Below, piece by piece: positions 23,811-37,615 of a stretch of 64,000 bases of DNA (the stretch's first letter is position 1; every line of letters starts with the position of its first letter). The DNA is from Brevibacillus sp. (lineage in GTDB: Bacteria > Bacillota > Bacilli > Brevibacillales > Brevibacillaceae): contig JACDOF010000005.1 of the NCBI GenBank assembly GCA_017656235.1, forward strand, positions 1-64,000, given 5' to 3'. The translations under genes and the position numbers were made by a program. The notes below the pieces were generated by a model. The model was not told the origin of the DNA. It did no database searches and was given only the letters and a program-made list of their open reading frames with translations.

Positions 23811-25034
23811 ATGCGCGAAAGAGAAGAGACGCGGCAGGTAAAGGTGATTGCCCTGATCACGGCGGTCTGTCTGTTGGGGGACTCGATGCTGTACGTGGTC
23901 ATGCCCACTCACTGGCAGTCGTTTGGCTTGTCCTCGCTGTGGGAGGTGGGCATCCTGTTGTCGGTGAACCGCCTGGTGCGGCTGCCGCTCAATCCGATCA
24001 TTGGCTGGTTGTACCGAAGGCTCAGCATTCGCCAGGGAATCTTGATCGCAGTCCTGCTCGCGGTACTGACCACGGCCTCGTACGGGTTGGTCGATGGGTT
24101 TTGGCTGCTCCTGGTTATGCGCTCTCTGTGGGGGTTGGCCTGGTCTTTTTTGCGGATCGGCGCGTACTATACGATTGTGGGGTTGTCCGATGAGCAGAGT
24201 CGGGGACAGCATATGGGAACGTACAATGGCTTGTACCGGCTGGGCAGCTTGGGCGGCATGCTGGTTGGCGCCCTTTTGGCCGATTTCTGGGGGGCCGATT
24301 GGGTGGCCGTATGCTTTGGCCTCATCACTTTGCTCGCGCTGCCTGCCGTCTTCCGGCATGTGTCGGCCGGAAGCGGAGCAGATCTGGAGGGAGGAAGCGG
24401 GGGAGAAGCAAAGCGGGAAGACACCGCTTTGACCATGCAGTCGATCTGGAGAAGCAGGACGGTTCTCTGGACACTCTGTACCGGCCTGCTTTTGGCCATG
24501 CTTTACCAGGGGATCTTCACCTCAACCATGAGCTATCTGATGAGCCTCCGCCTTCCGCAAGGGTTCGAGATCGCCGGCATCGTGCTGGGCGCTGCCACCC
24601 TGGCCGGGCTGCTGCAAGCGCTGCGCTGGGGATGGGAGCCGTTTCTCGCGCCCTGGTTCGGCAAAAAGTCGGACGGACCGGGCGGGCGTCGGCCCTTGTT
24701 CGTTGGGACGCTGGTGACAGCGGGACTGTTGTTTGCCGCCGTCCCCTTTGAGATGCCGTTTGTTGTCTGGCTGTTTGTCCTGTTGGCGATTCAGATGACC
24801 TCAACCGTCCTGACGACGGTGATGGATGCGCTTGCTTCTGATGCGGCTGCTCGAGCCTCCAAGCTGACGGTCATGACTGCGTACACCGTGGCGATTGACC
24901 TGGGAGCCGCGCTTGGGCCTGTTTCCGGCTACCTGGTTGAAGAGTTGTGGGGAACGGCGGCGCTGTACATCACTTCCGGGGTGCTGCTGCTGTTGCTGGC
25001 TGTGCGCTGGCGGAAACCCTTCGCGATGAGCTGA
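23811..25034 (+). CDS. Major facilitator superfamily transporter
   Basis: 407 residues from ATG 23811, chosen because GGGGAGAGAAAGG sits before it; in-frame ATG 23796 is an alternative. Twelve membrane segments in two halves with a hydrophilic central linker (ADLEGGSGGEAKREDT). N-terminal VKVIALITAVCLLGDSMLYVVMPTHWQSFGLSSLWEVGILLSVNRLVRLPLNPIIGW resembles MFS_1 sugar or drug carriers with the RxxxxxPxxG element. It is separated from the dpp operon by about 140 bases and converges with the metal ATPase gene, 17 bases away. Substrate unknown. Confidence 0.85.
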   Translation: MREREETRQVKVIALITAVCLLGDSMLYVVMPTHWQSFGLSSLWEVGILLSVNRLVRLPLNPIIGWLYRRLSIRQGILIAVLLAVLTTASYGLVDGFWLLLVMRSLWGLAWSFLRIGAYYTIVGLSDEQSRGQHMGTYNGLYRLGSLGGMLVGALLADFWGADWVAVCFGLITLLALPAVFRHVSAGSGADLEGGSGGEAKREDTALTMQSIWRSRTVLWTLCTGLLLAMLYQGIFTSTMSYLMSLRLPQGFEIAGIVLGAATLAGLLQALRWGWEPFLAPWFGKKSDGPGGRRPLFVGTLVTAGLLFAAVPFEMPFVVWLFVLLAIQMTSTVLTTVMDALASDAAARASKLTVMTAYTVAIDLGAALGPVSGYLVEELWGTAALYITSGVLLLLLAVRWRKPFAMS

Positions 25035-25050
25035 AGGCGGGCCTGCGGCT

Positions 25051-26985
25051 TTACTGCCGCAGCAGCCGCAGGCCATTGAGGATGACCAGAATCGTGCTTC
25101 CTTCATGTCCCACCACGCCAAGCGGCAGGGAAACCTCGCCAGCGAAGTTGGAGACGACCAAAAGCAGAATCACACACAACGAAAAGGCGATGTTCTGCTT
25201 GACGATCCGGCTGGTTTTACGGGCCAGCGCGATCGCCGCCGGAATGCGCCTCAAATCGTCATTCATCAGGACGAGGTCAGCCACATCCAGCGACACTTCA
25301 CTGCCGGTGCCGCCCATGGCGATACCAACTGACGCTTTCGCAAGTGCCGGTGCGTCATTGACGCCGTCTCCCACCATCGCGACGTGACCATAGCGCTGCT
25401 GCAGCTGCTCGATCAGCGTCGATTTTTGTTCCGGCAGCAGTTCGGCATACACTTCATCTACGCCGGCAGCTTGAGCGACCGCAGCGGCGGCGCATTGCGT
25501 GTCACCGGTCAGCATCACCACTTTCAACCCGGCCTGCTGCAGGCTGTAAACCACATGAGCAGCGTCCGGACGCAGCGCATCGCGGACCGCGATCACGCCA
25601 GCCAGTCCCCGGCTGTTTTGCAGGTAGACCAGTGTATGGCCCTGTCTCTCCCACTCCGCAATCTTTTCTGCCCCTTCTTCCGGCAGGGCGGGAAAATCAA
25701 GCCATTCTTCTTTTCCCAACTTCCAGTTCTCACCGTTTACCTGCGCTGTTATCCCCCAGCCGGCCAATGCCTGAAAGCGGCGCGGCTGTTCCAGTACAAG
25801 CCCCCATTCTTTTGCTTTCCCTACTATCGCCTGGGCGATCGGATGCTCCGACATCTGCTCGATTGACGCCGCTACTCGCACCAGTTCCTGTTCGTCGTAT
25901 CCCTTAAAGGGCAGCAGGTGGGTGACGACCGGCTGCCCGCAGGTCAGGGTGCCGGTTTTGTCAAAAGCCACCACCTTCACGTGAGCCAGATTTTCCAGAT
26001 GAGCCCCGCCCTTGAACAGAAGTCCTTTGCGCGCACTGGACGAGATGGCTGACAATACCGCGGGCATGATGGAAGCCACTAGGGCACAGGGAGAGGCTAC
26101 TACCAGAAAAACCATCGCCCGGTACAGCGCCTGCTGCCAGCTCCATCCCAGCAGAAACGGGGAAAGAAGCAGCAAGAGCAGGGTAAAGGCCAGGATCACT
26201 TTGGCATAGCTTCCCTCGAACCGCTCCAGAAAACGATGCGCGGGGGGAGCCTCACTCTGCGCTTCCTTGACCAGCTTGACGATTTTAGCCAGCAGAGAGG
26301 CATCATTGGAGCGGGTCATCTCCACCAACAGGGCGCCCTGTCCGTTAATCGTGCCGGCATACACCTCGTCATGGGGGTTCTTCTCCACCGGCAGCGACTC
26401 GCCGGTGATGGACGCCTGGTTTACGGCAGAGTGTCCTTCCCGGACGATGCCGTCCACCGGAATGCTGGCTCCCGGTTTGACCAGAACGACCGCGCCGGGG
26501 GTGAGCGAGTCGACGGGAACGCGCTTTTCTGAGCCGTTTTCCCAAAGCAGCGCGGTGGCAGGTTTGAGATGGAGCAGCGAGGCGACGTCGCGGGAGCTTT
26601 TCGCCATTGTGTAACGCTCCATGGCACCACTCAACGCGAAAATAAAGATCAGGATGCCCCCTTCCAACCAGTGACCGATACTGGCCGCCCCGATGGCGGC
26701 GAGCAGCATCAGCAGGTTAACGTCGATTTTGCGCTCCTGCCAAAGTGCCGCCAGCCCTTCTTTGGCTTTGCTAAAGCCGCCTGTGAGGTAAGCGAGCACA
26801 AACAAGCCGACAGAGATGGCCGGAAACTGGTCCAGCACCCAGGCAGCCAGCGTGAAGGTGCCGCTGGCCAGTGCCCCCATCCCCTCCAGGTGCTGCCGGA
26901 CACGGGCGAACAGGCTGATTATCGCTTTCCGCTTCTCGTCGGCCCCGCTTTGGCCAGCCGGACAACTTGTATTCCACACGAACAT
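25051..26985 (-). CDS. pfeT: P1B-4-type metal-transporting P-type ATPase (PfeT/ZosA-like)
   Basis: 644 residues from ATG 26985, with AAAGGATGGG upstream. In-frame codons extend to 27090, but that part overlaps the regulatory region. No N-terminal metal-binding CxxC domain is present. Membrane helices, actuator loop (ASITGESLPVEK), TM metal site SPCALV (SPC instead of CPC), phosphorylation site DKTGTLT, SEHPIAQAI (HP motif) and hinge GDGVNDAPALAKA are all visible. SPC in place of CPC and lack of a soluble metal-binding domain mark the P1B-4 group. Known members (PfeT, CtpD, CoaT) export Fe(II) or Co(II). In Bacillus subtilis PfeT is PerR-controlled; two Fur-family-like boxes upstream here fit iron efflux. 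Cobalt or zinc export cannot be excluded. Confidence 0.88.
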   Translation of the reverse strand: MFVWNTSCPAGQSGADEKRKAIISLFARVRQHLEGMGALASGTFTLAAWVLDQFPAISVGLFVLAYLTGGFSKAKEGLAALWQERKIDVNLLMLLAAIGAASIGHWLEGGILIFIFALSGAMERYTMAKSSRDVASLLHLKPATALLWENGSEKRVPVDSLTPGAVVLVKPGASIPVDGIVREGHSAVNQASITGESLPVEKNPHDEVYAGTINGQGALLVEMTRSNDASLLAKIVKLVKEAQSEAPPAHRFLERFEGSYAKVILAFTLLLLLLSPFLLGWSWQQALYRAMVFLVVASPCALVASIMPAVLSAISSSARKGLLFKGGAHLENLAHVKVVAFDKTGTLTCGQPVVTHLLPFKGYDEQELVRVAASIEQMSEHPIAQAIVGKAKEWGLVLEQPRRFQALAGWGITAQVNGENWKLGKEEWLDFPALPEEGAEKIAEWERQGHTLVYLQNSRGLAGVIAVRDALRPDAAHVVYSLQQAGLKVVMLTGDTQCAAAAVAQAAGVDEVYAELLPEQKSTLIEQLQQRYGHVAMVGDGVNDAPALAKASVGIAMGGTGSEVSLDVADLVLMNDDLRRIPAAIALARKTSRIVKQNIAFSLCVILLLVVSNFAGEVSLPLGVVGHEGSTILVILNGLRLLRQ

Positions 26986-27001
26986 CACAACCCATCCTTT
27001 C

Positions 27002-27016
27002 TGAAAGTGAATATCA
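27002..27016. promoter_or_regulatory. Fur-family-like box in the ATPase leader
   Basis: TGAAAGTGAATATCA agrees with the 7-1-7 consensus TGATAATNATTATCA at all but three positions. It lies 17 bases upstream of the ATPase start codon. Confidence 0.45.
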
Positions 27017-27074
27017 TTTGTTTTCCTCTTAAAAGCAGCCGATGCTGCTGTTCGGATGAACAGCAGCATCGGGT

Positions 27075-27089
27075 TGATAATGAGTTTCA
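27075..27089. promoter_or_regulatory. Second Fur-family-like box
   Basis: TGATAATGAGTTTCA agrees with the 7-1-7 Fur/PerR/Zur-type consensus at all but about three positions. It lies in the long leader of the minus-strand ATPase gene. Confidence 0.45.
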
Positions 27090-27091
27090 TT

Positions 27092-27142
27092 TTTCGTTTG
27101 TCTAAAAATGTTTCGTCTAGTCAAACTTTACTTTGTATTATA
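27092..27142 (-). promoter_or_regulatory. ATPase promoter with tandem metal-regulator-like direct repeat
   Basis: TATAAT on the minus strand (plus 27137-27142) is a -10 candidate with a poor -35. Just downstream on the transcript lie two similar elements, plus-strand TTTCGTCTAGTCAAA (27111-27125) and TTTCGTTTGTCTAAA (27092-27106), offset by 19 bases. Repeated elements at +5 to +45 look like operator sites for a regulator that I cannot name. Confidence 0.45.
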
Positions 27143-27186
27143 GCAGGGAAACTTTGGCGGGGGAAGCCGGTTTTTTCTGTAGGCGG

Positions 27187-27228
27187 TTGCCGATTACTCA
27201 GCTCCGGCATACAATAATGATAATTATT
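27187..27228 (+). promoter_or_regulatory. Promoter with Fur-like box for a small membrane peptide
   Basis: TTGCCG (27187-27192), 17-base spacer and TACAAT (27210-27215) form a promoter. AATAATGATAATTATT (27213-27228) begins in the -10 and covers the transcription start; its arms AATAAT/ATTATT are perfect and it contains the GATAAT hexamer of Fur boxes. Confidence 0.6.
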
Positions 27229-27249
27229 CTTGCTGAACGAGGTGCTGCC

Positions 27250-27348
27250 ATGCCGGTCGAGACCCTGGAAGTTGTGCTGTTGGCCGCCATGCTGCTGGTC
27301 GCGCCGTTTTTATTGTCCATGGCCAGCGGACGGCGATTCTGGAGATGA
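27250..27348 (+). CDS. Predicted 32-residue membrane peptide
   Basis: ATG 27250 follows GAGGTG (27239-27244) with a 5-base gap. The product begins MPVETLEVVLLAAMLLVA, contains one continuous hydrophobic helix (residues ~6-23) and ends with a positively charged tail (SGRRFWR), as in single-pass small membrane proteins oriented with the C-terminus inside. The reading frame is bracketed by a near-consensus promoter with a Fur-like box and a strong terminator, which is the main support for it being a gene. It is divergent from the metal ATPase, so it could be a small regulator or partner of metal transport. No family recognised. Confidence 0.55.
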   Translation: MPVETLEVVLLAAMLLVAPFLLSMASGRRFWR

Positions 27349-27362
27349 GTGTAATTTCTTCA

Positions 27363-27416
27363 AACCTCTTTACACGGAGTTAAGACCAACGTCACTTTGT
27401 GTAAAGAGGTTGTTTT
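27363..27416 (+). terminator. Strong terminator after the small membrane peptide
   Basis: AACCTCTTTACAC (27363-27375) and GTGTAAAGAGGTT (27399-27411) form a perfect 13-bp stem with a 23-base loop, followed by GTTTTG. It lies 15 bases after the small gene's stop. Confidence 0.75.
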
Positions 27417-27488
27417 GTATGGTACGTAAATAGTATGACAAAGCCTTTCCCGACCAGAAAACAGGGCGTGCCCCGTCACGCTCATCTG

Positions 27489-29174
27489 CTACCAACTGCG
27501 GATCGGAACGGAGCCGGGAGCGTTCTTGGCCAGCATTTCAACGACAGGATAGGCGTACGCAATCAAGATAAGAACGAGTGTTAAGGAGATCCACAGCGAC
27601 CACCGCTCAAGGATCAGGGGGGGCTTTTGCGCTTTTTCATTGACAACGCCAATGGGGTATTCGATCGCTCGTTCCGTCTTTGGAGCAAAGAGCCAAAGAT
27701 AGACAACTATCGCTAGAAACAATACGATGGAGATGTACAAAAGAATACTTCCCGTTCCCATAAGCACCCTGTACGGCTCCCAGGTTTGCACAATCGGATG
27801 GTCGTTGTAAGTCGTAAAAGCGGTCCGTCTGGGCTCTCCGAGCAATCCCACGATGTGCATACTACCACCCATTAACAAGATTCCTGCCGACCAAACTGCT
27901 GCCTGGACGATGCCCAGGATGTTGGCGAGCCGGGTAAGCGCCCGTCGTGCAAGCAGCGGAACTAACCAGTACGAAATGGCAAAGAATGTCAACAACACGG
28001 AAGCCGCCAGGGTTAAATGAAAATGTCCTGTAACCCATAACGTATTGTGAACCACTTGATTCATTTGGTAGCTCGCGTTGATGATACCGCCCGCTCCTGC
28101 AGGGATAAACAGCAGCATACCCAATGCCGGAGCGACGAAACGAACGTCTTTCCAGGGGAGTTTTCGGATCCAGCCAAATCTTTTTTTGCTTCCCAAAGAA
28201 CGCCCGGACAGCTCAAATGCAGCAAATAAGGAGAATATGGTCATCAAAGAAGGAATCACGACGATCATCGTCAATACGACCTGTAAGAACTTCCAAAAAG
28301 GCGATATTCCAGGTTCCATCAACTGATGGTGAAAACCGACCGGGATCGAGTACAAAATAAACAAGATGAAGGTAAGTCGCGGCAGCGCGTCGCTGAAGAT
28401 TTTCCCTTTGATGATGTGCGGAATGTTAACATACCAGATATAAGCCGGCAGCAGCCAAAAGTAGACCAGCGGATGACCGAAATACCAGAATAACGTACGA
28501 CTTAATTCAACATTGATCTTATCCACCCACCCAAACGCCCACGGGACGAGGAGTACGACCACTTCCACGACTACACCCAGGGTGGCGATGATCCATAAAA
28601 TCATCGTGGACACCGACATGAATGCAAACAGCGGAGAAACTTCTTGCCGGTTTTCTTTTCGCCATCTCCAGTAATTATGAAACACTGTCCAAGCGCTGAA
28701 CCAACTTCCAATGATCAGCAAAGCAAGAGCTACGTAGAACCAGGGGGAAGCAGCCAAAGGGGCATAAAATGTATAGAGCACCGATGCATTGTTGTTTAGA
28801 ATGGAGATCAGGGCCAGGACGGAACCAAGCGCCATGAGCCAATATCCTGCCCAGCCCACTTTTCGCGAAACTGGCTGAAGTGTACCGTTTAGCGTTTTGG
28901 CCATTCCGGAATACAAAAAGCCAACAATAAAAAATGTAGTGAACACAAGAGCCAGGTAGACACCATGGATTGTAAGCAATTGGTAGTAACCGATTGCGCC
29001 AGGCAGGTCGATAAAACCTGTCCGCTGCAGTCCCTGTAAAACGCCCGCCAGGGTGCCCACAAACAAAGCGAAAAAAGAAAACGCAAGATGTGCGGAAATC
29101 AAGGTTTTATCTTTTGGATGAAAGTGAAAATCATCCGTGTGAATGTAGGCATTACCGTATCCCACGTCTTTCAC
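27489..29174 (-). CDS. cbaA: ba3-type cytochrome c oxidase subunit I
   Basis: 561 residues, GTG start at 29174 with AGGAGGG 8 bases upstream. About 13 membrane helices. Heme-copper ligands are visible: His70 (LTIHGVYLAL, low-spin heme), His234 and Tyr238 (FGHPLVYFWLLPAY, CuB and cross-linked Tyr), His282-His283 (GFHHQL, CuB), and the HNTLWVTGHFHLT segment with His384/His386 (heme ligands). HPLVYFW instead of HPEVY is typical of B-type (ba3) oxidases, which reduce oxygen at low tension. Such enzymes need a CuA subunit II, usually encoded immediately upstream. Here only a short C-terminal remnant of it is left, so this subunit is an orphan in the window. Lower GC than flanking regions. Confidence 0.92.
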   Translation of the reverse strand: MKDVGYGNAYIHTDDFHFHPKDKTLISAHLAFSFFALFVGTLAGVLQGLQRTGFIDLPGAIGYYQLLTIHGVYLALVFTTFFIVGFLYSGMAKTLNGTLQPVSRKVGWAGYWLMALGSVLALISILNNNASVLYTFYAPLAASPWFYVALALLIIGSWFSAWTVFHNYWRWRKENRQEVSPLFAFMSVSTMILWIIATLGVVVEVVVLLVPWAFGWVDKINVELSRTLFWYFGHPLVYFWLLPAYIWYVNIPHIIKGKIFSDALPRLTFILFILYSIPVGFHHQLMEPGISPFWKFLQVVLTMIVVIPSLMTIFSLFAAFELSGRSLGSKKRFGWIRKLPWKDVRFVAPALGMLLFIPAGAGGIINASYQMNQVVHNTLWVTGHFHLTLAASVLLTFFAISYWLVPLLARRALTRLANILGIVQAAVWSAGILLMGGSMHIVGLLGEPRRTAFTTYNDHPIVQTWEPYRVLMGTGSILLYISIVLFLAIVVYLWLFAPKTERAIEYPIGVVNEKAQKPPLILERWSLWISLTLVLILIAYAYPVVEMLAKNAPGSVPIRSW

Positions 29175-29200
29175 TGGAGATCCCTCCTAGGGTTTTTGGA

Positions 29201-29311
29201 TTACGTAACGGTAATCGTGCCAGCCATTACGTGATGGCCGACCTCGCAGTATTCGTGACAGATAGAACTTGCGTCCACCTGAAGATCCATGGCTCTCTGC
29301 TGTGATGGATG
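29201..29311 (-). pseudogene. cbaB: CuA-site remnant of oxidase subunit II
   Basis: On the minus strand a 36-codon open stretch ends at TAA 29201-29203, just 27 bases before the subunit I start. Its last 29 codons (from an internal ATG at 29290) contain ICHEYCEVGHHVMAGTITVT, the copper-binding signature Cys-x3-Cys-x3-His-x2-Met of the CuA domain exactly as placed at the C-terminus of ba3 subunit II. A TGA at 29312-29314 closes the frame upstream, and the following sequence is the promoter of a plus-strand hemerythrin. The membrane anchor and the first CuA histidine are absent, so this is the 3' scar of a lost gene and not a functional subunit. Too short for ordinary gene finding. Confidence 0.75.
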
Positions 29312-29343
29312 TCACAGCCGGGCGCAGCTGTGTATCGTAACAT
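29301..29343 (+). promoter_or_regulatory. Crp/Fnr-type site and promoter of the hemerythrin gene
   Basis: TGTGA-TGGATG-TCACA (29301-29316) is a perfect match to TGTGA-N6-TCACA. TAACAT (29338-29343) is a plausible -10, placing the start near 29350 and the site centre at about -41.5, the class II activation position. The same arrangement occurs before hmp. Confidence 0.7.
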
Positions 29344-29392
29344 GTAGGTGAAAAGGCACTCGGCGACGCGCCGGGTAAAAGGAGGACAACCC

Positions 29393-29950
29393 ATGAAAGG
29401 ATCTGGCGACACGAAATCGTTGAACCTGTCGGACTGGAAAGAGACGTCGGAAGCCGAGTATGGACGCCTGTTCACGATCATCGCCCCGGAACTTCATCCA
29501 TTTGTTGAGGATCATGCTGCGTTGGGCAAACTAATGGACAAGGTCAGGACCGGGTATTCCCGTGAAGTGTACGAGAATGCGCTGAAACGGATCGAGGAAG
29601 AATTGGAACATCATTTCCGCGAAGAAGAAAGGCTTATTCTCCGCTTTTTGTCCAACCACATCCCCGCCGATGATGCTGGGCCTGTTTTCAAGTTGAAGCA
29701 GGAACATGACATCATCCGCAGCCGATACCTGGAGGCCGCCCAACTGTTTGCCGAGCACAACGAGCACTCCCGTGAGCGGCTCGTGCAGAAGATGAACATG
29801 CTCGCTTATCTGCTTAAAAAACACATCGAAAAGGAGGACCACTACCTGTTTCCCATGGCCGGCGCGATTCTGACTCAGGAGGAAAAACGGAGCATTGCGC
29901 GGGAACTGTCTGGCGGTCATCCATCAGATGAACTGGAGCCGAAGGAGTGA
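29393..29950 (+). CDS. Hemerythrin HHE domain protein
   Basis: 185 residues from ATG 29393 with GGAGG at 29381-29385. The di-iron ligand pattern of an HHE four-helix bundle is present: HPFVEDHAALGKLMDKV, EELEHHFREEERLIL, KLKQEHDIIRSRYLE and LLKKHIEKEDHYLFPMA (His, HxxxE, His, HxxxE). Such proteins (ScdA/YtfE/RIC-related or oxygen/NO-binding hemerythrins) act in nitrosative stress and iron-sulfur repair or as oxygen carriers. It lacks the cysteine-bearing N-terminal ScdA domain. It overlaps a second, damaged hemerythrin by GTGA, and shares a Crp/Fnr-type site design with hmp. Confidence 0.88.
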   Translation: MKGSGDTKSLNLSDWKETSEAEYGRLFTIIAPELHPFVEDHAALGKLMDKVRTGYSREVYENALKRIEEELEHHFREEERLILRFLSNHIPADDAGPVFKLKQEHDIIRSRYLEAAQLFAEHNEHSRERLVQKMNMLAYLLKKHIEKEDHYLFPMAGAILTQEEKRSIARELSGGHPSDELEPKE

Positions 29951-30351
29951 TTCGTAATGAGCCAAGTACCCCATCATTGCGGGATGCCTTTGCCCGGGAG
30001 CTTGACCCTCACTCCGAACGTGAAGAGGGAACCCTCTTTCCTCTCATGGCAAAATATATCGGCAGAGAGGTGGGGCCGATTGCCGTGATGGAATATGAAC
30101 ACGAACTGGCGAAGGATAACCTGAAGAAGTTTGGGGAAGCGGTGGAACAATTGAAGGAGCCGGTGGATACCGAGCGAGCAAAGGAGATCGCTTCTTATGC
30201 GCTTCAAGCCCATGTCGTCTTAACGGATCATTTTATGAAAGAGGAGAACGTATTGTTTCCGATGGCGGAAAACATGTTGAGCGCGGAAGAGAAGGAAGAA
30301 CTCAGTCATGCGCTTGGGCGTGTCCAAAGTCGTGGTCTCTCGCGGTTTTAA
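29947..30351 (+). pseudogene. Second hemerythrin, apparently internally deleted and frameshifted
   Basis: The open frame from GTG 29947 encodes 134 residues with a clear hemerythrin body: LDPHSEREEGTLFPLMAKYIG, GPIAVMEYEHELAKDNL and VLTDHFMKEENVLFPMAENML. The first helix with its His ligand is missing. A different frame starts at ATG 29957, ideally spaced from GAAGGAG, and reads MSQVPHHCGMPL, which looks like a genuine N-terminus of this hemerythrin group (recollection, not a search). The two frames meet at about 29980-29990. The simplest reading is an out-of-frame deletion of roughly 50-60 codons fusing start and body. The shortened protein may still be made from GTG 29947 by coupling, but would lack one iron ligand helix. 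It converges with the Crp/Fnr gene with a 4-base overlap. Confidence 0.6.
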
Positions 30352-31031
30352 CGTTCTCTCCATCGTTTCAGCCCGTACATGTCCAAAATTATGATTTCAG
30401 AACGGTGAGTTTCAACAATACGTTCCTTTTTCAGTTGATTTAAGAGCCGATTCACCGTTTCTCTGGATGTTCCGATCGTATTGGCCAATTCCTGATTGGT
30501 CATCGGCAATTCGATGTGAATTCGGGAACCCTCTTCTTTTCCGTGTTTGTCCGCCAATTGTAACAATAAGGAAAGAATCCTAAAGTTCGCGTTGTGACCG
30601 GTAAACTGCTGAAGTTTTTGTTGGAGTTCTCGAATTTTGGCACCCATGACATCGATGACTTTGATGGCAATTGACGGCATAGCCAAGATGAGCTGCTCAA
30701 AAGCGTGGACGGGGATCGCTAAAAGATGAGTGTCCACGAGGGCTTCCGTTGTTGCCGGATAAGGCGTTTGGTTAAAGAAACCGGTATGCGGAAACATATC
30801 TCCGGTTTGCAGCAGCGACACAATTTGTTCATGCCCCTCCTCGTCGGTTTTGTAGGCTTTGACTAGTCCGTCCTGAATGAAAAATACCGCTTCCTTTTCG
30901 CTTCCTTCCATAAAGATGGTCGTCTTTTTCCGGAAAACACGATAAATGGCGATTTCTTCGACACGAGCCAGTTCCTGCTGGTTCAAGTCGCGGAATAAAG
31001 GAACCTGCTGCAACATTTTCCGTTTCTCCAT
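30348..31031 (-). CDS. Crp/Fnr family transcriptional regulator
   Basis: 227 residues. Residues ~10-125 are a cyclic-nucleotide-binding-like beta barrel (KTTIFMEGSEKEAVFFIQDGLVKAY), followed by the long dimer helix and a C-terminal winged helix with ELANTIGTSRETVNRLLNQLKKERIVE. The recognition helix core SRETV-x-R equals that of Crp, which reads TGTGA half-sites. Perfect TGTGA-N6-TCACA sites stand before the hemerythrin and hmp genes. No cysteines are present, so this is not an iron-sulfur Fnr; nitric oxide sensing through heme (Dnr-like) or another signal is possible. The gene sits between its two probable targets. Confidence 0.9.
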   Translation of the reverse strand: MEKRKMLQQVPLFRDLNQQELARVEEIAIYRVFRKKTTIFMEGSEKEAVFFIQDGLVKAYKTDEEGHEQIVSLLQTGDMFPHTGFFNQTPYPATTEALVDTHLLAIPVHAFEQLILAMPSIAIKVIDVMGAKIRELQQKLQQFTGHNANFRILSLLLQLADKHGKEEGSRIHIELPMTNQELANTIGTSRETVNRLLNQLKKERIVETHRSEIIILDMYGLKRWRER

Positions 31032-31183
31032 ATAAATGGTCCTTTCCTCGAGTTTTTACTAAATTATAACGATTAAGAGCGATCTCTTGCAGTGAATCGT
31101 TCATCAGGAGAAGTTCAAACCATGAAACGGCTGCCGGCGGCATGTTGGACGTCGACGAGCGTCACAGAATCGTCACGGTCATG
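31032..31183. other. Divergent region between Crp/Fnr gene and hmp
   Basis: TATAAT on the minus strand (plus 31063-31068) is a -10 candidate for the regulator gene. GTCACAGAATCGTCAC (31171-31186) contains an additional half-site-like GTCAC repeat just upstream of the perfect Crp/Fnr box. Confidence 0.4.
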
Positions 31184-31230
31184 TGTGATCGCCATCACAA
31201 ATGAAGCGTGAAAATTTCCATTAAGATAAT
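31184..31230 (+). promoter_or_regulatory. Crp/Fnr-type site and promoter of hmp
   Basis: TGTGA-TCGCCA-TCACA (31184-31199) is a perfect palindromic Crp/Fnr site. TAAGAT/GATAAT (31222-31230) is the -10 region, so the site centre (31191.5) is about 41-45 bases upstream of the start. Confidence 0.7.
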
Positions 31231-31308
31231 CGTGTCACCTTTCATCGATGCTGTAAACAATATGCACGCAGAAAGGGACGATCTTCTACACAGAGGGAGG
31301 AATGTGTT

Positions 31309-32553
31309 GTGCTCGAAGCGAAAACGATCGAGATCATCAAATCGACGGTACCTGTGCTGCAAAGGCACGGAAAAGCGATAACGACGCGTTTTTATCAAAT
31401 GATGTTATCCAACCACCCGGAATTGCTGAACATTTTTAATCATAGCAATCAGAAGCAAGGCAAACAGCAAACGGCGCTTGCCAACGCTGTCTATGCCGCG
31501 GCAGCGCATATCGACAACCTCGAAGCGATCCTACCCGTCATCTATAAGATTGCCCATAAACATCGCAGCATAGGTGTCCAACCGGAACACTACCCGATCG
31601 TTGGAAAACATTTGCTCCTTGCGATGAAGGATGTCCTTGGCGACGCCGCGACGGACGAGGTGATCGAGGCTTGGGGCAAAGCATACGGGGCCATCGCAGA
31701 CGCGTTTATCAAAGTGGAGAAGGAACTCTACGAACAAGCGGAGAAACAGTCAGGCGGTTGGTTCGGCTTTCGCAGATTCGTCGTCGCGAGAAAGGTAAAA
31801 GAAAGCGACGTCATCACCTCCTTTTACCTAAAACCGGAAGATGGAAAAGCGATTGCATCCTACCTCCCTGGGCAGTACATCAGCGTCAAGGTGGATATCC
31901 CGGGGGAAACGTACACCCACATCCGCCAGTACAGCTTGTCCGACTCACCGGACAAAGATTACTACCGCATCAGCGTGAAACGGGAAGACGGGAACGAAAC
32001 GAAGCTTCCGGGAATTGTTTCTAATTATTTGCATAATAGGGTAGAAGAAGGGGATATCCTGCCAGTCAGCGCGCCCGCCGGGGATTTCATCCTTGACCTG
32101 CAAAGAACGCTCCCCGTTGTCCTGATCAGCGGCGGTGTCGGACTGACACCGCTGATGAGCATGTTGAATACGCTCGTAGAACGGCAGCCGGAACGCGAGG
32201 TTACGTTTATCCATGCCGCGATGAACGGCAACGTTCACGCGATGCGGGAACACGTTTCCCGCTTAACCGCCAACCATTCGCAAGTCCGTTCTTTCGTCTG
32301 TTACGCGAAACCAACGCCGGAAGACCGCATCGCGAAAAACTTCGACAAAGAAGGGTTTATCGATTTACAGTGGCTGCAATCGATCCTTCCAGACAAGAAT
32401 GCGGATTTCTATTTCTGTGGACCGGTCTCTTTCATGAAATCGATCTATCGCGCACTCAAAGAATGGGGAGTTCCGGAAGAGTTCATCCATTACGAGTTCT
32501 TTGGACCGAGCGGCACGCTGGAAGAACAGGAGGATGTTGCGTTCACCCGTTGA
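31309..32553 (+). CDS. hmp: Flavohemoglobin (nitric oxide dioxygenase)
   Basis: 414 residues, GTG start at 31309 with GGGAGG 8 bases upstream. Globin domain (1-~145) with Tyr29, proximal His85 (AHKHRSIGV) and Tyr95 (PEHYPIVG), the catalytic set known from Hmp. The FAD-binding reductase domain (~155-260) has RQYSLSD, and the NAD-binding domain (~265-405) has ISGGVGLTPLMSML and DFYFCGPVSFM. It converts NO plus O2 to nitrate using NADH. Position next to a Crp/Fnr regulator and hemerythrins makes this an NO-defence patch. Confidence 0.96.
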   Translation: MLEAKTIEIIKSTVPVLQRHGKAITTRFYQMMLSNHPELLNIFNHSNQKQGKQQTALANAVYAAAAHIDNLEAILPVIYKIAHKHRSIGVQPEHYPIVGKHLLLAMKDVLGDAATDEVIEAWGKAYGAIADAFIKVEKELYEQAEKQSGGWFGFRRFVVARKVKESDVITSFYLKPEDGKAIASYLPGQYISVKVDIPGETYTHIRQYSLSDSPDKDYYRISVKREDGNETKLPGIVSNYLHNRVEEGDILPVSAPAGDFILDLQRTLPVVLISGGVGLTPLMSMLNTLVERQPEREVTFIHAAMNGNVHAMREHVSRLTANHSQVRSFVCYAKPTPEDRIAKNFDKEGFIDLQWLQSILPDKNADFYFCGPVSFMKSIYRALKEWGVPEEFIHYEFFGPSGTLEEQEDVAFTR

Positions 32554-32610
32554 TTTGCGCAAGCCATTGAGAATCGGCAGCAGGGGAGACGTTTTACAGG
32601 GAGGAGGTGT

Positions 32611-33168
32611 ATGGGTTTTAACGGACAAGTGATTCTGCCAGCGGCAAAAGATACGCGCGATTTTGAGAAAATCCTGGACAGTTCCTGCGAGTACGGGGTG
32701 TTTCTGGACACGCACATCGGCCAGTTAAAACATCTTTATCAGCTGGCCAAGAAGAGGAACAAAAAAATGTTCCTGCACGCCGACCTGATTCAAGGACTCA
32801 AAAACGATGAGTACGCCACCGAATACCTCTGCCAGGAGGTACAACCGTACGGCATTATTTCCACCAAAACAAGTGTCATTACCAAAGCGAAGCAAAAAGG
32901 CGTCGTAGCCATTCAGCGCGTGTTCCTGCTCGATTCCAATGCATTGAAAAAAAGTTACGCCCTGCTGGAAAAAACCAAACCCGACTTTATTGAAGTGCTG
33001 CCGGGCCTGATGCCGCGCATTATTGCCGAGGTTTGTCAGCAGACCAGAATCCCGGTTTTGGCGGGGGGATTGATTCGCACCGTATCCGATGTGGAGAAGG
33101 CCTTGGCTGCGGGGGCGGCGGCGATTACGACCTCCAATCGGGAGCTGTGGAAGCATTACCTGCCGTAA
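32611..33168 (+). CDS. glpP: Glycerol uptake operon antiterminator, copy 1
   Basis: 185 residues. The TIM-barrel-like GlpP fold is recognised by FNGQVILPAAKDTRDFEKIL, VFLDTHIGQLKHLYQLAKKRNKKMFLHADLIQGLKNDEYATEYL, GIISTKTSVITKAKQKGVVAIQRVFLLDSNALKK, IEVLPGLMPRIIAEV and IPVLAGGLIRTVSDVEKALAAGAAAITTSNRELW. GlpP binds glycerol-3-phosphate and then acts on leader mRNAs of glp genes to prevent termination. It follows hmp by 57 bases with no clear promoter, and precedes glpF with a GlpP-type leader. A paralogue is at 43731. Confidence 0.93.
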   Translation: MGFNGQVILPAAKDTRDFEKILDSSCEYGVFLDTHIGQLKHLYQLAKKRNKKMFLHADLIQGLKNDEYATEYLCQEVQPYGIISTKTSVITKAKQKGVVAIQRVFLLDSNALKKSYALLEKTKPDFIEVLPGLMPRIIAEVCQQTRIPVLAGGLIRTVSDVEKALAAGAAAITTSNRELWKHYLP

Positions 33169-33274
33169 GCGGGATCTTCCCATACGTCATGTGCTTTCTC
33201 CCTCACCTTTGGTTTCTGGCACCTTGGCCTGCGCTTCGTTTTTAAAAAATTCAGATTTTATTTTAAAATCCGTC

Positions 33275-33303
33275 TTGACACCGTTTACATCCTTTAGTAC
33301 CAT
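33275..33303 (+). promoter_or_regulatory. glpF promoter overlapped by a CcpA cre site
   Basis: TTGACA (33275-33280), 17-base spacer, TACCAT (33298-33303). TGACACCGTTTACA (33276-33289) matches TGWNANCGNTNWCA at every defined position and overlaps the -35, as expected for catabolite repression of glycerol uptake. Confidence 0.8.
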
Positions 33304-33327
33304 AATAATCAAGTTAATACACGTGAT

Positions 33328-33393
33328 GGAGAAACGGAGACCCACGCGGAAGATCCTCGGCCCAAGAGGATGCTTTGGTGTGGGTCTCTTTTC
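33328..33393 (+). promoter_or_regulatory. GlpP-type antitermination leader of glpFK
   Basis: GGAGA (33328-33332)-AAC-GGAGA (33336-33340) is a direct repeat. Its second copy merges into the terminator 5' arm GAGACCCAC (33337-33345), which pairs with GTGGGTCTC (33380-33388) followed by TTTTCTT. An inner hairpin ATCCTC/GAGGAT (33353-33358, 33366-33371) sits in the loop. By position and the adjacent glpP this is the GlpP-controlled terminator. Confidence 0.8.
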
Positions 33394-33421
33394 TTATCCA
33401 CAAAACACGGGAGGGAGATGT

Positions 33422-35763
<2,342 letters not shown>

Positions 35764-35805
35764 TCGCGGAATATGGTACACTGGATGCAAGTTCATACGA
35801 TGTCT

Positions 35806-35872
35806 GGAGATCTGGAGAGACCACGCTGCACTATAGCGCCACTATAGTGTCTGTTGTGGTCTCTCTTTTTTT
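35806..35872 (+). promoter_or_regulatory. GlpP-type antitermination leader of glpD1
   Basis: GGAGA (35806-35810)-TCT-GGAGA (35814-35818) is followed by the terminator GAGAGACCAC (35815-35824) / GTGGTCTCTC (35856-35865) and seven T. The loop holds a second perfect hairpin CACTATAG/CTATAGTG (35829-35836, 35842-35849). Same layout as the glpF leader. Confidence 0.8.
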
Positions 35873-35920
35873 ACGTTTCCTTGTACCTGGCCCTACTTCA
35901 CCTTATTTGGAGGGATTGGT

Positions 35921-37615
35921 GTGGCGAACTCTTTTTCCAGCATGCAGCGCAAAATGATCCTGCGGGAAATGGAACGGACGACCTACGATCTGCTGGTCAT
36001 CGGAGGAGGGATTACGGGAGCGGGGATAGCGCTGGATGCGACAACCCGCGGCATGAAGACGGCGCTTGTGGAGATGCAGGATTTTGCGGCCGGCACCTCC
36101 AGCCGCTCGACGAAACTGGTTCACGGCGGACTCCGCTATCTGAAACAGCTGGAGGTGAAAATGGTGGCGGAGGTCGGCCGGGAGCGGGCGATTGTCTATG
36201 AGAATGGTCCGCACGTGACAACGCCGGAATGGATGCTATTGCCGATTTACAAAGGAGGAACGTTTGGCAGGCTCAGTACCTCGATCGGGCTGAAAGTGTA
36301 CGATTTTCTGGCCGCTGTTAAAGGAAGCGAGCGGCGCAAAATGCTGTCCAAACAAGAAACGCTGGCCAAAGAGCCGCTGTTGAAACAAGCGGGATTGATC
36401 GGGGGCGGCTATTACGTGGAGTATCGGACCGACGACGCCCGCCTGACCATCGAGGTGCTGAAAGCGGCAGCAGCCCACGGAGCGGCTGCTGCCAACTATG
36501 CCAAGGTAGAGGGGTTTCTTTACGAGCGGGGGAGGCTGATCGGGGCAGCGGTGGTTGACCAGCTGGACGGGGAGACATACCGCATCCACGCCAGGACGAT
36601 CGTCAACGCTGCCGGACCGTGGGTGGATACCTTGCGGGAATTGGATCAATCAAAGCGAGGCAAGATGCTTCAGCTGTCCAAAGGCATCCATCTGGTGATT
36701 GATCAAGAGCGGTTTCCGCTGAAGCAGGCGATCTACTTCGACACGCCGGACGGCCGGATGGTGTTTGCCATCCCCCGCGACGGGAAAACCTACGTGGGCA
36801 CGACCGACACCTTCTACCACGGCGACATGGCCCGCCCGCGCATGACCGTGGCCGACAGGGACTACCTGATCGATGCGATCCATTTCATGTTTCCGACTGT
36901 GAAGATCACGGCGGCCGACATTGAATCAAGCTGGAGCGGTCTTCGTCCGTTGATCTACGAAGCCGGAAAGAGCGCCTCCGAGATATCGCGAAAAGATGAA
37001 ATCTGGCAGGCCGAATCGGGTTTGATTACAATCGCCGGCGGAAAGCTGACCGGGTACAGAAAGATGGCGGAGACGGTTGTCGATCTGGCTGCACTGCGGC
37101 TGAAACAAGCGGGCCAGGGCCCGTTTGATCCGTGCAAAACCAGGCACCTGCCGATCTCCGGCGGCAATGTGGGCGGCGGCAATCAATTCCCTTCTTTTGT
37201 AGAGAAAACGACCAGAATAGGGGAGGCCGCGGGGCTGACCAGAGCGCAGGCAGAGCGGATTGCACGCCGCTACGGTTCCAATGCGGAGCGCTTGTTTGCG
37301 ATCCTTTCATCTGTCGGCCAAGAAGCGGCGGTCCATGACCTGCCGTTGGATCTTTATGCCATGCTGGAGTATGGATTGAGAGAAGAGATGGTCGTAAAAC
37401 CGATCGATTTCTTGATCAGGCGAACGGGCGCCTTGTTCTTTGACATCCACGCTGTCCGCAGGTGGAAAGAGCCGGTGGTGGACTACATGGCCGGCAGGCT
37501 CCAGTGGACACCGGCACAAACCGAAGCGTACAGAAAAGAGCTGGAGATGCACCTCCATGACGCGGTCATCCCGGCAGAGGAGGAAGATGACGGGGAATGC
37601 CCTGGAACACAGTGA
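35921..37615 (+). CDS. glpD: Aerobic glycerol-3-phosphate dehydrogenase, copy 1
   Basis: 564 residues, GTG start at 35921 with GGAGGGA upstream. FAD-binding Rossmann start [54 protein letters not shown], then [65 protein letters not shown] and [19 protein letters not shown]. Membrane-associated enzyme that oxidises glycerol-3-phosphate to dihydroxyacetone phosphate and passes electrons to quinone. A second copy is at 44485. Confidence 0.96.

Follow-up and report, generated by a model that had tools for sequence, protein, structure and literature searches.

The short minus-strand peptide at 29201-29314 of the window (the whole stretch of DNA analysed, 64,000 nucleotides) was confirmed by sequence comparison as the end of a ba3-type (B-family) oxidase subunit II gene, a deletion scar lying just upstream of a subunit I gene. 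Most likely, these are parts of an oxidase/NO-response island that was relocated and is decaying, with the frame of subunit I surviving. The features at the scar are given below, where hem1 denotes the nearer of two hemerythrin genes.

27489..29174, minus: subunit I of a ba3-type oxidase, orphaned, with an open frame of 561 aa from a GTG start (PF00115, 285.6 bits)
29201..29263, minus: remnant of ba3 subunit II, the last 20 codons with CuA loop plus stop (HMM, translation)
29264..29290, minus: nine in-frame codons with ATG start preceding the remnant, without subunit II homology (column counts)
29301..29316, plus: perfect Crp/Fnr-type box TGTGATGGATGTCACA, assigned to hem1 (hem1 relatives)
29393..29950, plus: hem1, hemerythrin-domain protein, full length against its relatives, to which it is 49-60% identical (PF01814, alignment)

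Translation of 29201-29314 on the minus strand gave HPSQQRAMDLQVDASSICHEYCEVGHHVMAGTITVT, bounded by a stop codon at either end, a frame of 36 residues from stop to stop (median of the relatives' subunit II frames, 166). Only its C-terminal 20 codons, ICHEYCEVGHHVMAGTITVT (29263-29204, followed by the stop codon at 29203-29201), align with subunit II. The preliminary description had counted 29 codons as left of the gene, and a 29-codon frame does open at the first ATG (29290-29288), but only 20 of these codons are subunit II, because homology starts at the Ile preceding the first Cys. Two of the eight residues before the homologous part, both D, are found in relatives (54/109 and 13/109), and the other six in 0/109. 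When a profile HMM built from the C-terminal portion of subunit II in 109 relatives was run against the stop-to-stop six-frame peptides of the 64-kb window (at least 15 residues, n = 1967), the remnant peptide ranked first with an E value of 1.8e-8 and 30.8 bits, the runner-up standing at E 0.99, which upheld the original reading of this peptide as the CuA-loop end of a ba3 subunit II. The loop CxExCxxxHxxM is present, and residues C, E, Y, C, G, H and M of the relatives' loop each occur in 109/109; the signature first described as precise retains the ligands C, E, C, H and M, but the invariant glycine after the second Cys (109/109) has been replaced by Glu. Pfam made no COX2 call on the 29-residue peptide, its sole match being a chance-like one to an unrelated family (E 0.068). 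The remnant lacks the membrane helix and the remainder of the CuA domain with its upstream His, and a 26-base spacer containing GGAGG separates its stop codon from the GTG of subunit I.

Comparison with intact relatives covered 110 ba3 loci, comprising the best 80 of 197 from named genomes, 29 from the host's relatives (drawn from 30 matches only, among 59 genomes) and the genome's own second ba3; at least four contigs occur twice among the 110 loci, and the genome's own caa3 subunit I (L003) was excluded from the ba3 column and CuA-loop counts. At 109 of these loci, one of them with a frameshift, a CuA-loop frame directly precedes subunit I, and at the remaining locus (L008) the contig begins inside subunit I, leaving no upstream DNA. 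In the window, homology to subunit II ends at the junction where 109/110 relatives have the full gene in place, bearing out the earlier statement that the rest of the gene is gone. The frameshifted one of the 109 is L038 (4400-4990), from the complete genome of Cohnella cholangitidis, in which the ba3 subunit II is frameshifted mid-gene, either truly or by sequencing error.

Set beside the CbaAB enzymes of Thermus and the Bacillales, the remnant occupies the usual place of the subunit II gene, but only 20 codons of it are left, and neither a subunit II gene nor an operon promoter survives. A related loss is described in PMC3475470, in which the ba3-type pair BABA_18502-18497 of Bacillus bataviensis has a subunit II without about 30 C-terminal residues, including the CuA ligands, so partial subunit II loss in this group has, on that account, already been published. 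Both loci are ba3-type pairs that have lost subunit II sequence needed for CuA; however, B. bataviensis lost the C-terminus and kept the rest, whereas the window shows the reverse (PMC3475470). The same text places the B. bataviensis subunit I in a NOR-like group, and the window's subunit I carries the cross-linking Tyr that its authors regard as the mark of an oxidase (PMC3475470). Searches of open-licence papers, mostly at abstract level, turned up neither a description of this locus nor one of any orphan ba3 subunit I.

The 561 codons of subunit I hold no stop and no frameshift. Its best solved relatives are the Thermus ba3 chains (E 7e-110), which it matches along almost its entire length (residues 19-549); it has the same His and Tyr residues as the B-family CbaAB enzyme of Thermus thermophilus (H70, H234, Y238, H282, H283, H384 and H386, aligned with the Thermus chain), and its Arg pair also aligns with the Thermus enzyme. 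These residues serve as His ligands of the hemes and of CuB and as the cross-linking Tyr (in part after PMC3475470). Departures at nearly invariant columns numbered 5/148, the fifth highest of 111 sequences (the range tops out at 8/149 in intact relatives), and those at fully invariant columns 2/107. In a tree of 34 of the 111 sequences, the root-to-tip length was 0.646, within the range of 0.267-0.702 for the 34 rows. By these sequence measures, subunit I is slightly loose and not decayed. The orphan clusters with the second-type ba3 subunits I in a group of 18 rows supported at 99/97; its position within that group has poor support (67/32), and a congener's copy (L090) belongs to another, well-supported subgroup, a placement that fits with horizontal transfer. 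The subunit I nearest by identity among those compared (about 74%) is L024:2036-4123, from a MAG labelled Deltaproteobacteria; since this subunit I groups with Bacillota, the bin is probably mislabelled or mixed.

A profile search of the own genome returned two COX2 and three COX1 matches above the cut-off, and one COX1 match below it. C1:603744 and C1:604436 form a subunit pair of the caa3 type, whose subunit II has a cytochrome-c-like tail; C1:744828 (subunit II) and C1:745135 form a complete ba3 pair; and the third COX1 match above the cut-off is the orphan, which has no subunit II gene beside it. Both COX2 matches adjoin other subunits I, so no further CuA subunit was found, and the description of the window's subunit I as orphaned holds. 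The orphan shares 60% identity with the other ba3 subunit I, and the two fall in different tree clades. The sub-cut-off COX1 match at C7:21031, in a 138-residue frame, was rejected as a complete subunit I.

The space next to the remnant had been attributed to the Crp/Fnr-regulated promoter of the hemerythrin, and the comparisons agree. Perfect TGTGA-N6-TCACA sites occur twice in the 64-kb window. A box with at most one mismatch lies within the 260 bases ahead of the match in 9/9 hem1 relatives (49-60% identity), two further matches (29-30%, hem2-like) having been excluded from this count, so the box at 29301-29316 goes with hem1. Its centre, 29308.5, is 41.5 bases ahead of a hem1-fitting start, and TAACAT was read by eye at 29338-29343. 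The box was rejected as a subunit I promoter, as no good -10 hexamer lies at the equal distance toward subunit I. The interval between hem1 and subunit I contained no consensus promoter in a weak scan, which found 2 sites in 27300-31320 against 3.8 in shuffled sequence. The ba3 genes of Brevibacillus sp. SYP-B805 (L118) are preceded at some distance by a box of their own (7287), and 29150-31320 of the window has no match to that ba3 upstream region.

The scar is one of several losses in a block of about 27.34-32.6 kb, whose other features and two flanks are as follows.

25051..27090, minus: P-type ATPase gene, left flank (PF00122), on the same neighbour side in G001 and G002
27349..27447, plus: left-end remnant of an IS3-like insertion sequence, the block's left edge (91% to the L152 element)
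29940..30351, plus: hem2, second hemerythrin gene, internally deleted (DNA comparison)
30320..30334, plus: tentative 15-base scrap of a cupin-like gene, which follows hem2 in relatives (15/15 to L118 and L144; E 0.14)
30348..31031, minus: Crp/Fnr-family regulator gene (PF00027, PF13545; 86% to L118)
31184..31199, plus: the other perfect Crp/Fnr-type box, ahead of the flavohemoprotein gene (motif scan)
31309..32553, plus: flavohemoprotein (Hmp-like) gene (globin, FAD- and NAD-binding domains)
32611..33168, plus: glpP-like antiterminator gene, right flank (PF04309)

The 3' end of hem1 runs into the leader of hem2. In hem2, the start and leader (29940-29980) are fused to a 3' part (29982-30314) that is 90% identical to L118; 179 bases present in L145 are missing and one extra base stands at the joint, so the frame is altered, and an open frame continues in hem2 from a GTG overlapping the hem1 stop. 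The cupin-like and following genes are gone from the interval between hem2 and the Crp/Fnr gene, where the 15 bases at 30320..30334 may, by their identity to relatives, be a cupin-like leftover. In a local set of loci, into which L125 was also pooled, hem1 had no matches apart from the window's own copies and the L118 hem2 (28%). The insertion sequence remnant, 99 bases long, is the sole part of that element found in the window besides a 22-base match inside the same stretch; the element has two genes, HTH_Tnp_1 and rve/HTH_21 in Pfam, an architecture of the IS3 type. In other genomes of the family, copies of the element frequently lack internal sequence and have their two ends fused (L153, L156).

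The most similar arrangement is the island of Brevibacillus sp. SYP-B805 (L118/L015; G007), where a stretch of about 10 kb holds hem2, a Crp/Fnr gene and the genes of ba3 subunits II and I. L118 contains hem2, a cupin-like gene, two NnrS-like genes, the Crp/Fnr gene, subunits II and I and a prismane-family (hcp-like) gene; the two NnrS-like genes are putative and had no Pfam match. Unlike in the window, the subunit II, hem2, cupin-like and NnrS-like genes there are intact and stand in another order and orientation, and hem1 is absent, with only the 28% match to hem2. The L118 NnrS-like gene had no match in the own genome, in a search run without a positive control. Separately, a Bacillus MAG (L016:2917-6650) has a flavohemoprotein gene, 66% to the window's, directly preceding a ba3 II-I pair, suggesting a recurring link between ba3 oxidases and NO detoxification.

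The flanks differ in congeners. In G001, a single-contig genome from this genus, about 1.5 kb separates the ATPase match from the glpP match, and the 13 kb around them showed no match to subunit I, the hemerythrins, the Crp gene or the flavohemoprotein; nor were these block genes matched in the stretch of G002 that carries the ATPase and glpK. The block-gene search covered 13 loci, L148 among them. Because the G001 and G002 stretches lack its genes, 27.34-32.6 kb is a block missing here in two congeners, and a single local deletion between constant neighbours was rejected on the same flanks. The local loss of subunit II first proposed is thus real, but it is one among several in a block that lies elsewhere or is absent in congeners. 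By megablast, 27300-32600 had no match to plasmids, and 24000-36000 had no Rfam match at gathering score.

From these arrangements, we infer that the block (subunit I, two hemerythrins, the Crp/Fnr regulator and the flavohemoprotein) would have been assembled in or moved to its place between the P-type ATPase and the glp genes, perhaps with the help of an insertion sequence, and that several deletions would then have removed pieces of it. One junction would have placed the hem1 promoter beside the last 20 codons of subunit II, with loss of the rest of subunit II and of the operon's own upstream region. Subunit I retains an open frame and its active-site residues; it adjoins no partner gene and no recognised promoter, and its neighbours are damaged, which counts against its being of use. 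We favour a loss that is young relative to species divergence. We hold with good confidence that the scar is the subunit II remnant of a second ba3 oxidase in a moved, multiply deleted block, in which subunit I is likely a relic; judged from sequence, subunit I is most likely a relic that is poorly or not expressed. The open frame, the ligands, the 5/148 departures and the ordinary root-to-tip length all speak against a relic, so that loss of function is put forward conditionally.

The main rival to this relic reading has subunit I functional and using the subunit II of the other ba3 oxidase (C1:744828) as a hybrid enzyme. An intact ba3 subunit II is indeed present in the genome, and the orphan offers an open frame, all ligands, the Thermus-aligned Arg pair and a good ribosome-binding-like GGAGG ahead of it; however, identity between the two subunits I is only about 60% and their clades differ, the weak scan found no promoter ahead of the orphan, and 109/110 loci retain their own subunit II upstream, so that sharing would be without precedent in the set. 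We regard such a hybrid as unlikely, and give slightly less credence still to the related idea that subunit I outlived the loss of its own CuA through the paralogous subunit II, with two catalytic subunits served by one electron-entry subunit.

An assembly error, with a full subunit II really present and the junction artificial, could be suspected from the several junctions within about 1.2 kb. Yet the site lies 29 kb inside a 157-kb contig, the genome has ratings of 100% for completeness and 0.1% for contamination, no detached piece turned up elsewhere in it when it was searched for COX2, and the remnant is altered at an invariant residue; we consider an error improbable. Least credible is a reading of the 29-codon frame as a genuine small gene, coding for instance for a copper-binding peptide: it has an ATG, an open frame, the loop ligands and the right distance to subunit I, but a comparable short form was found in 0/109 judgeable loci, the frame lacks the membrane helix and the remaining CuA domain, Glu stands in place of the invariant Gly, and the first nine codons have no subunit II relatives, leaving this explanation a very slim chance.

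The observation of a subunit II scar is thus true, and the event is of an ordinary kind, a scar left by deletion within an island that has been moved and eroded. It provides a clean example of respiratory operon decay, in which a 60-base scrap identifies the lost gene, and serves as a warning for annotation that an intact subunit I gene is no proof of a working second ba3 oxidase. If subunit I were functional, the locus would be a natural test of heme-copper oxidases sharing or dispensing with the CuA subunit.
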